From: Trichoderma breve
Taxonomy: Eukaryota > Ascomycota > Sordariomycetes > Hypocreales > Hypocreaceae
NCBI RefSeq assembly: GCF_028502605.1
Contig: NC_079235.1
Location: 2,852,001 to 2,916,000, forward strand
Length of the DNA: 64,000 nucleotides
Direction of reading: 5' to 3'
Positions 49,839-52,510 of this stretch are shown here, piece after piece (position 1 is the stretch's first letter; each line of letters opens with the position of its first letter). Both the position numbers and the translations under genes were made by a program. Below the pieces are notes generated by a model. That model did not search any database. It was not told where the DNA came from and saw only the letters and a list, made by a program, of their open reading frames with translations.

Positions 49839-50555
49839 GGTGACGATATTTTATTGTTATCTGGATTGCAACATTGAGAGCGGCGTTTGTTTATAATAAG
49901 AGACCGCGGTTATTTGAAGCCGCTTGGAGAGGCGCAAGCCGGCTGTGTTTGCTCTGTACAAGTTAGGAGGTCGTCGTACAGTATCGAGGCCCCCCAGTTG
50001 CATGGGTGCTATGCTATTACTTGTGGGGTCAGCGAAATGACCAGCTTCACCAGCAGCGACCGTTATCGATAACACCGCGACCCTGATGACGTATTCATAC
50101 GCCTGCGCCGGAACATTTACGTGTATCTGTACTCCGTACTCCGTATTCCGTCCTCAGCCATAGGTTTCATCGTATAGCTGTGGGTGCTTTGGCAAAGCTA
50201 CCTGGAAGGCGGTGCATTGGGAGGGCGTTCTTTTACTTCCCTTTTGGGGCTTTTTGCGGGGAGGACAAAGGATCGTAAAAGTATCGTGGCCTCCACATCT
50301 TCGAACGTTGGATTGTCTTCTATCAAAAAGGAGCGTCAAATTTCTATTCCTTGCTACTTGTCCTGCAAACTAGCTTTCTAATATTTGAAACTGGTCTGTA
50401 GGCAAACCGGAATGCCAACTTTTAAACCAAGGCCACGCGTTCACCTCTAGTATTTGACGGTAAGGACACGTAAGCACGAATATTCCTCTTGTCTGAAGGC
50501 GACTCTCAGCACCTACCCCATTCAATCACGCCGGTCCCAGCTATGCAGACGACAC
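49839..50555. other. Region between eRF1 3' end and the VASt-domain gene promoter
   Basis: The stretch holds the promoter of the minus-strand gene at 45738-49838 and the distal eRF1 3' UTR. Around 50130-50150 it has a direct repeat of TACTCCG-like units. I see no further gene. Confidence 0.55.
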
Positions 50556-50624
50556 CTAACACAAGCCGGCTTTAGTCTAAGGACGTGTAGGAGGAGCGCA
50601 TATTTGCGTACATGAAATGCTTAC
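50556..50624 (-). other. Candidate 3'UTR intron of the eRF1 gene
   Basis: Reading the minus strand, a strong donor (GAGG then GTAAGC) at 50624 is followed by an ACTAAAG branch-like element and a TTAG acceptor ending at 50556. This gives a 69-base intron of typical fungal size. The donor lies 23 bases past the second in-frame stop and about 240 bases past the main stop. Splicing is predicted, not shown; a second acceptor (GCATAG) lies 14 bases further on. Confidence 0.5.
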
Positions 50625-50647
50625 CCTCTTTCCTTTGATGATGAAAC

Positions 50648-50866
50648 TCAAGTGGCCGTCATGGCCGCGCGAAGCGGGCTTGGTCGCGACGTCTGGTGGG
50701 CCTGATGAGAGGGCAGTTGACCAGCATTTCGCATCAAGCGCCTTTGAGCAAATGACAACGGCGCGGCATCTCCTGACCCAGACAGGTCGCGAGGCGCGTC
50801 GTTGTCGTCGTGCGCGGACGGGTTAACTTGAGTGGATCCCTCGTTCTCCACGAGGGAATCGGTTGG
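50648..50866 (-). promoter_or_regulatory. In-frame readthrough extension after the eRF1 stop codon
   Basis: After the predicted eRF1 TGA (50869-50867) the same frame stays open for 72 codons, to a second TGA at 50650-50648. The stop is followed by CCA; a C at the +4 position is the leakiest context for TGA. The encoded tail has protein-like composition, rich in Asp, Ala and Ser, and codons with many C/G third positions. Its meaning depends on the terminal splice site being placed correctly. Confidence 0.45.
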
Positions 50867-52510
50867 TCAATCTTTCCTTCAAGTTAGCCTCCGTTGTGGT
50901 GGAGATTCAGTTGTGAATCAAGTGCTCTTACCGTCGTAGTAGTCATCATCGTCATCCTCGAGATCTGCCAACTGTTCAAAGTTGACCTTGTAGCGCAAAA
51001 TGCCGCCAATACCACCGAAACCCTTGACAAACTGGTTGCCCTCAGTGGATCGGTCAGACACGAATTCAAGGGCGGTACCAAAGTCCTTGTAGTGCTCAGC
51101 AATCCATTCAAGGAATGATTCCTGAGAAACAATATCCATCTCTTGGCCAGTGGCCTTGTCCAGGAACTTCTCTCGGCTGCTTTGTTCCTGTTGCTTGGTT
51201 GTGTGCAAGATAATCTCAGCACCCTCACTGTCCTTAAGAATCCAGCGAGTGATCTCAAGGTTCTCAAAGATGATGAGAGTCTCAACGGCACCAAGCTCCA
51301 ATGCCTTCAGAGTATCGTCGATACCGTAGCAGACCTTGCCAGTATCCTGGCTGATTTCCTCAAAGTACTTGCCAATCAGCTTCTTCTCCTGGATGAACTT
51401 GACGTTTCCAAGAGTCTCGGAGGACAGCTCAATGGCCTGGTTGAAACCGTTCTCACCACCGTAAGAGACATCAACAACCTTGATAACTTTGACCGCCAGA
51501 CGGTTGTCGAACATGTCGGAGGCGTTAAGGTCGTTCTTGAAATCGGCGGAACCAGCAAGAATGAGACCGGCAACGTTGACCTTGTCGGCAGTGATGAAGT
51601 TCTGCACAGCCAACTCGGCGACTTTGCGGACGTAGTTGTGACGCTTTTCCTCACGAAGACGGGCGAAACGCAGAGCGGATTGACCACCACGTCCGTGCTT
51701 CTTGGGCAGATCGACGGAGAACTTGTGAACGATTTCACGGGTGTTTCCACTGAGAGTACCGAACAATGCGCCGTTACCATCCATGATAATGAAGCCAAAC
51801 TTCTGGTCGGACTCGAGCAGCTCGGCCAAGGCCTCGGTGTGGAATTTGTTGTCGCAGAGGTACAGCGAAGTGTTGATGGGCTTGAAGGGTTCAAAGTCAA
51901 TGTTGACCTTGCGTTCTTTTCCTTCCGAGGTCAAGATTTCACCACAGTACACGACCAAGCCATTCGGAGGAACCTTGTTGTATAGCTTAAGACGCTGCTG
52001 GGTCGACGTAATGGCGGACAAGACGGACTGTCGGTTGACACGGGACTTGATGTTAGAGGCAGTACCCTGCGGGGCTGTCAGCAAACTGCTCGTGAAAAGG
52101 CCAAAGTAGCTAATGAGGGTTATTTCGTACGTATTCTTCAGCCAACATCTTGGCAATACGCGACACTTGATCCTTTGGAGCTGCGTCAGGGTTAGCATCG
52201 TTGATCGGGTGGTCGCGAGGGCGGTCTGCCGGGGTCGTCACGTACGGATAATGAGGGAAATCATAGAGGTTCCATTTCCGCGGGCGGCCTCGAGGCGCTT
52301 GATCAACTTCTTGATCTTCCAGATCTCGATCTATTCGCAGTCGTGTTAGGCATTGCTGCTGTATACTCGGTGTTCTTGATGCCAGCGCGGGGCAGCAAGG
52401 AAGGAGGGGCAAATCAGGGGCCAAAAATATTTTCAGGTATTTTTCGCCTTTTAATTTTTTTTTCTTAGACTCACGTTCTTCTCCGCCTCACCGGCCTGAG
52501 GGTCACTCAT
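50867..52510 (-). CDS. SUP45: Translation termination factor eRF1
   Basis: eRF1 reads all three stop codons and triggers peptide release together with eRF3. Exons are 52510-52475, 52330-52246, 52180-52131, 52066-50932 and a five-base terminal exon 50871-50867, giving 436 residues. The N domain has TASNIKS (NIKS near residues 62-65) and the YLCDNKF motif that decode stop codons. The middle domain has the universal GGQ in GRGGQSALRF near 182-184. The C domain binds eRF3 and ends in an acidic DDDDDYYDD tail. The last intron (GTAAGA donor, GCTAAC branch site) has two nearby acceptors. The one ending at 50872 gives the tail YYDD and a TGA stop. If the intron were retained, the protein would end GKST at 50918. 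The start MSDPQAGEAEKN matches the family. Confidence 0.93.

Follow-up and report, generated by a model that had tools for sequence, protein, structure and literature searches.

Can the translation termination factor eRF1 set its own level through the failure of termination at its own stop codon? This question is raised by the eRF1 gene of Trichoderma breve, which lies on the minus strand of a 64,000-nt stretch of contig NC_079235.1 (assembly GCF_028502605.1; forward-strand positions 2,852,001 to 2,916,000). We refer to the whole of this stretch as "the window", and all coordinates are positions within it; the genome assembly comprises 38.5 Mb in 9 contigs. Judging from the arrangement of its stop codons, open frame and predicted intron, together with a conserved tail peptide and a hairpin, eRF1 is probably a self-limiting switch that links stop codon readthrough to nonsense-mediated mRNA decay (NMD). 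Switches of this kind are known. This is a new instance, with two features that we have not found described in the literature searched: a peptide encoded beyond the stop codon that is conserved among relatives, and an RNA hairpin directly behind the stop codon.

Background

Neurospora and Trichoderma belong to the same class of fungi, and the abstract of a study of Neurospora erf1 reportedly proposes similar circuits in many fungi. That study, which a preliminary description of the window had invoked as its precedent, is real: Kurilla et al. 2020 (FEBS Lett., doi 10.1002/1873-3468.13918; cited in PMC10578600 and PMC9809470) presents Neurospora crassa erf1, by its title, as autoregulated through readthrough and NMD elicited by an intron in the 3′ untranslated region (UTR). 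The gene is the same here and, as far as that title goes, so is the architecture of stop readthrough and 3′UTR intron, which in T. breve is predicted from the sequence. The additions made here are the conserved tail peptide and the hairpin, and the Neurospora paper may already describe both. None of the matches listed in our literature search, which covered titles and abstract openings and had the text of Kurilla et al. outside its scope, dealt with a hairpin or a conserved tail peptide of fungal eRF1.

Comparable systems occur outside the fungi. Arabidopsis eRF1 is summarized in PMC11062462 (after Nyiko et al. 2017, doi 10.1093/nar/gkw1303), in the part available, as combining readthrough of its own stop codon, a downstream intron, and an NMD-sensitive 3′UTR; the likeness is one of architecture, between different kingdoms. 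In insects, readthrough stops show a preference for TGA-C and an enrichment of conserved structures 3′ to them, according to the accessible part of PMC5100048, and the Drosophila gene dfr, as described in the text available of PMC13170385, has a UAG stop with a structural element at +10 to +58 and a level of readthrough that Upf1 knock-down left unchanged. The insect cases resemble eRF1 of T. breve in the TGA-C stop and 3′ RNA structure; they differ in that extended proteins are made and in that no coupling to a 3′UTR intron appears in the accessible text of these two papers.

Layout of the 3′ end of the eRF1 gene

The features on which the argument depends are as follows.

50867..52510, minus strand: eRF1 gene, 436 amino acids, five exons
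52510-52475, 52330-52246, 52180-52131, 52066-50932 and 50871-50867, minus strand: eRF1 exons, the last consisting of the final two coding bases and TGA
50872..50931, minus strand: last coding intron, 60 nt (GTAAGA...CTAAC...AAAG), splitting the final Asp codon ahead of the stop
50867..50869, minus strand: first stop codon, TGA, followed by C (TGA CCA)
50651..50866, minus strand: in-frame tail, 72 codons, conserved in relatives
50648..50650, minus strand: second stop codon, TGA, from the sequence
50556..50624, minus strand: predicted 3′UTR intron, 69 nt (GTAAGC...GACTAAA...TTAG), from the sequence and donor rarity

The gene is identified by its homologues, which bear eRF1 Pfam domains; the domain scan was run on the Trichoderma longibrachiatum relative (P0003) rather than on the window protein itself, and the two proteins are identical at 428 of 436 residues. 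Homologues were collected with the 436-residue eRF1 as the query, and the best 120 of 7995 scored (designated by P numbers) were inspected after the FGGIGG.LRY motif. Splicing out of 50931-50872 yields ...GAC G|AT TGA CCA, with C as the +4 base of the first stop. We place this intron on the basis of its consensus sites and the protein ends of relatives, which are YYDD or FYDD in 49/120; further relatives read into the intron after an identical YYD or FYD. If the intron were retained, eRF1 would end ...YYDGKST, with a stop codon inside the intron (50931-50918), and intron-read tails of this kind form the C-termini of several public eRF1 models.

Beyond the first stop, the frame stays open for 72 codons and leads to a second stop near the predicted intron, whose GTAAGC donor, at 50624, lies 23 nt past the second stop and 242 nt past the first. 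The 3′UTR intron itself is predicted from consensus sites. The preliminary description had given the GAT TGA CCA ending after removal of a 60-base intron, the 72 open codons up to a TGA at 50650-50648, and a donor 23 bases further on, and each of these agrees to the base.

Proposed mechanism

We envisage the following sequence of events. Most ribosomes would stop at the first TGA, producing the 436-residue eRF1. Termination there would leave an exon-junction complex (EJC) about 240 nt downstream, and the mRNA would be marked for NMD. At low eRF1 levels, the TGA would be decoded more often by a near-cognate tRNA, aided by the C at +4 and the hairpin. The ribosome that reads through would then cross the tail, stop within 25 nt of the exon junction, and clear it, sparing the mRNA. 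Readthrough would also yield some eRF1 that is longer by 73 residues, one from the decoded stop and 72 from the tail. The genome encodes UPF1, UPF2, UPF3 and, as the one EJC component searched, Mago (domains above curated cut-offs), and NMD through spliced 3′UTR introns in Neurospora requires EJC factors, according to the accessible part of PMC10578600.

This interpretation, which the preliminary description shares in outline, is partly supported, since the tests applied to the sequence agree while the function is a prediction. What stands of that description is the layout; its account of the tail as a route of escape from NMD is incomplete, since the peptide is conserved and a hairpin, which had been overlooked, lies directly behind the TGA.

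Conservation of the tail peptide

The tail encoded between the two stops recurs in public eRF1 models that skip the stop codon. We picked 15 tail-bearing Sordariomycete and Leotiomycete models by hand as a first group, and 14 models as a second group (see below); left out of both were the YYDD/FYDD ends, the intron-read ends, two models that cross the region in another frame (P0004 and P0028), and unrelated or unassigned ends. Tails of the window type occur in models from Trichoderma (P0003), Purpureocillium (P0005 and P0007), Paramyrothecium (P0006), Ophiocordyceps (P0008), Stylonectria (P0015), Amphichorda (P0023), Lecanicillium (P0033), Xylariaceae (P0022, P0029, and P0030), Pyricularia (P0010), Grosmannia (P0011), and Drepanopeziza (P0032). 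The fifteenth model, from Cytospora (P0036), has the DSLV part and lacks PSPLR. The T. longibrachiatum tail, VNPSAHDD...RPSPLRANMTAT, is identical to the window tail at 48/59 residues, and the DSLVENEG segment is identical between Paramyrothecium and the window.

Conservation is most evident at the end of the tail.

50651..50686, minus strand: C-terminal tail motif RPSPLRAAMTAT; relatives have RPSPLRSMMTAT and variants

PSPLR is found in 14 of the 120 homologues, all of them among the 15 hand-picked models. In 13/14 the model ends 5–6 residues after PSPLR; the exception, from Ophiocordyceps (P0008), continues for 39.

The two models set aside, from Fusarium (P0004) and another Ophiocordyceps (P0028), cross the tail region in another frame. 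We asked whether the DNA encoding each of the 120 proteins could also encode a tail motif in a shifted frame, with a few alternative residues allowed per place (motifs stop-PxDSLVxxEG and RPSPLRxxMTA; 112594 position-frame tests). The sites in P0004 and P0028 were the only passes, both for the start motif and for the C-terminal motif, and a middle motif again picked out these sites alone; a less strict form of it also fitted two places elsewhere (P0005 and P0036). HQxxRPSPLR is compatible with P0004, not with P0028. Both models leave room for a TGA or TAA at the position of the stop but do not require one.

The frame of the tail is thus kept in relatives from several orders, a positive result at the protein level, where a coding signature past the stop is found. 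The preliminary description had named a lack of frame conservation in relatives among the results that would overturn its interpretation, and the frame proves to be conserved at the protein level, with PSPLR in 14/120 homologues and two other-frame models compatible. A search of prokaryote genomes returned one archaeal relative, which is uninformative, and a search of viral contigs returned no relative.

A hairpin behind the stop codon

The first codons of the tail also encode an RNA structure.

50835..50860, minus strand: hairpin GAU(U)CCCUCGU-GGAGA-ACGAGGGAUC, the arms of which encode the conserved DSLV and NEG

The perfect 8-bp stem, TCCCTCGT-GGAGA-ACGAGGGA, starts 9 nt past the TGA, or 6 nt past it when the stem is taken to include the GAU/AUC extension, which has one bulged U. 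It is the only perfect stem of at least 7 bp (loop 3–8 nt) within the 1530 nt of coding sequence plus tail, and codon-shuffled controls contain, on average, 0.16 stems of at least 8 bp each. Among 6396 sampled 41-nt stretches of the window, 2.4% fold as well as the hairpin.

The arms could be placed in 11/16 sequences (15 models plus the window); in P0003, P0010, P0011, P0023, and P0032 the stretch is missing or nothing is alignable. In all 11, 6/6 Watson-Crick pairs are allowed by the S/T/A-G/A and L/F-E codon pairs. All nine stem pairs are possible in 6/11, against 0.4% of 2473 background seven-residue stretches, and at least eight are possible in 10/11, against 5.5% of the same background. 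Lecanicillium (P0033) allows 7/9 pairs, and Stylonectria (P0015) needs a loop one residue shorter. Because the sequences are related, we take this pairing as support for the hairpin and not as proof.

The residue between the arms, i.e., in the loop, varies (E, N, D, T, F, S, or A), whereas DSLV and NEG form the arms. This pattern would fit selection on an RNA element alone, whether a stem-loop or a splicing control, with peptide conservation as a by-product. Such an explanation leaves unaccounted for the C-terminal motif, a frame that stays open through a middle of variable length, and the steady position of the second stop shortly after PSPLR, and we consider it very improbable.

Evidence against the switch, and the possibility of an ordinary 3′UTR

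Several results weigh against the switch, and some of them are what would be expected of an ordinary 3′UTR, in which open codons, hairpin, and donor would have come together by chance. An open run of 72 codons has a chance probability of about 0.12 at the 62.5% G+C of the tail. In a control set of 18 window frames of at least 250 codons (mechanically defined frames, not all of them genes), 69–93 open codons follow the stop in three; in two of these the run reaches at least 72, and one of the three frames lies antisense to eRF1. Tail alone as the query returned zero candidates, and a region search with the Purpureocillium P0007 tail matched 3/65 candidates at E 0.01 or better (P0007 itself, P0005, and P0008), from which we conclude that the middle of the tail changes fast. 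Profiles built to join the first and second groups of tails were rejected, since shuffled decoys scored equally well or better in both directions; conservation is therefore claimed within the first group only. The 57 nt that follow the stop fold with unexceptional energy (z −1.15; 25/200 shuffles as good). Stronger readthrough contexts than TGA CCA are known. The fused public models are, as far as can be told, gene predictions that skip a stop, and are no proof of transcripts. Lastly, a pure NMD switch leaves the amino acid conservation of the tail unexplained. In addition, no Pfam family covers the tail, and G+C by codon position does not separate it from noncoding sequence.

The open frame alone is weak evidence for function. 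The layout stands above chance because the tail is conserved in relatives and the hairpin is present. A GTRNGY donor lies within 55 nt of the next stop in 0/3 of the long-tailed control frames and 1/18 overall, and GTAAGY is expected within 55 nt about 0.016 times by chance. A coincidental 3′UTR, for which the open-run statistics, the absence of a Pfam family, and the empty tail-alone search speak, has to contend with a peptide kept in frame across models from several orders and with two more species that are compatible in the dual-frame test when no other match arose in 112594 tests. We regard it as improbable.

Alternative splicing and RNA editing

The main rival to readthrough is alternative 3′ splicing, in which an acceptor beyond the TGA joins the extension in frame, the short form being sensitive to NMD and the long form stable. 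Five models (P0005, P0006, P0007, P0008, and P0015) join YYD directly to ADSLV or ADALV, for which, reasoning from the proteins, an AG just behind the TGA would be needed; an AG in that position would also be consistent with the models P0004 (Fusarium) and P0028 (Ophiocordyceps). Elsewhere in the Hypocreales, splicing to an acceptor right behind the TGA would keep the frame, which makes alternative splicing a live rival there. The window sequence has no AG from the TGA up to the DSLV codons, so no acceptor can join DSLVENEG in frame without decoding of the TGA. There is an in-frame AG further on, at 50828-50827 (CTCAAG|TT), which would give the same join as the T. longibrachiatum model P0003, and the AAG ending at 50827 makes alternative splicing possible in the window too.

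A predicted structure of the unspliced RNA bears on this.

50824..50886, minus strand: predicted pre-mRNA pairing between TAACTTGA in the branch-site region (50886-50879) and TCAAGTTA (50831-50824), about 47 nt on

The pairing, which encloses the acceptor, the TGA, and the hairpin, would bring the branch-site region together with the second AG (50828-50827). The 81-nt stretch 50895-50815 (minus strand), which we chose ourselves, folds with a z of −4.2 (0/200 shuffles as good). Such a structure could slow splicing of the last intron or shift its acceptor.

Three observations argue against alternative splicing. First, the DSLVENEG codons sit between the TGA and the AG at 50828-50827, yet they match relatives. 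Second, the candidate acceptor in the window is an AAG about 57 nt beyond the branch site. Third, the predicted joins vary (VNPS in Trichoderma, ADSLV in other Hypocreales, and apparently an upstream donor in Xylariaceae), as would be expected of gene finders dodging a stop. We consider alternative splicing unlikely, and readthrough of the TGA remains the preferred reading.

A stop codon can also be lost by A-to-I editing of the mRNA (UGA to UGG), as in Sordariomycete sexual development. In F. graminearum and N. crassa, hundreds of genes are reported to undergo stop-loss editing (PMC11156358), and in one fungus it was seen at the peptide level for 15 transcripts (PMC6794485), as far as the available parts of these papers go. 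In the same parts, the stop-loss editing described is UAG to UGG, and editing strongly prefers U at −1 (PMC11156358), whereas in UGA the A is preceded by G. The eRF1 stop is UGA, and not a codon in which the edited A would follow U (UAG or UAA). The chance that editing accounts for the conserved tail is close to negligible.

A possible second form of eRF1

The switch needs only an open frame, whereas the peptide is conserved, above all in its last dozen residues. This suggests a separate function for the extended eRF1 or for its tail, which might serve, e.g., as a stability signal or a binding motif. A broader proposal, which we advance tentatively and would not call likely, is that filamentous ascomycetes have a second form of eRF1, whose tail of 72 residues is old and closes with a conserved RPSPLRSMMTAT-type motif. 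This form would be made by readthrough stimulated by the hairpin, which is itself located in the DSLV and NEG codons of the tail, so that the failure rate of the termination factor sets both its own amount and the dose of an isoform with a separate function.

If the switch is real, the eRF1 switch of Neurospora extends to a Trichoderma-like fungus, and the tail would seem to do more than provide escape from NMD: retention of the peptide across several orders would imply an eRF1 isoform that public gene models show only by bending splice sites round the stop. Through the hairpin, termination efficiency could then be altered directly, by mutation, in a living sensor of eRF1 level.

A second group of tails, and neighboring sequence

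The second group comprises models from Aspergillus, Talaromyces, Emergomyces and relatives, Lasiodiplodia/Diplodia, and Geoglossum and relatives. Their tails have a start resembling ED..PEIP....LTA and, in Eurotiomycetes, RGPSKLR or a close variant. The seven Eurotiomycete models (P0056, P0058, P0078, P0093, P0102, P0107, and P0120) have mutually similar tails, with RGPS[KQ]L near the end in 7/7 and ED..PE(I/V)....LT near the start in 6/7; the P0078 model is without that part. In the Dothideomycete/Geoglossum-type models (P0035, P0048, P0039, P0069, and P0071–P0073), the first part is similar, with PEI or EIPP followed mostly by LTA. The Eurotiomycete tails suggest that the arrangement exists there in a version that is parallel or has diverged, and the resemblance of PSPLR to PSKLR across groups is put forward as a suggestion.

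One of the 120 homologues, the eRF1 of Physcia stellaris (P0108), carries the public name mannosyl-oligosaccharide glucosidase, which is an evident misannotation. Downstream of eRF1, the next long frame on its strand (45738-49838, minus) runs uninterrupted over 1366 codons, and its ATG lies about 700 nt from the predicted 3′UTR intron of eRF1.
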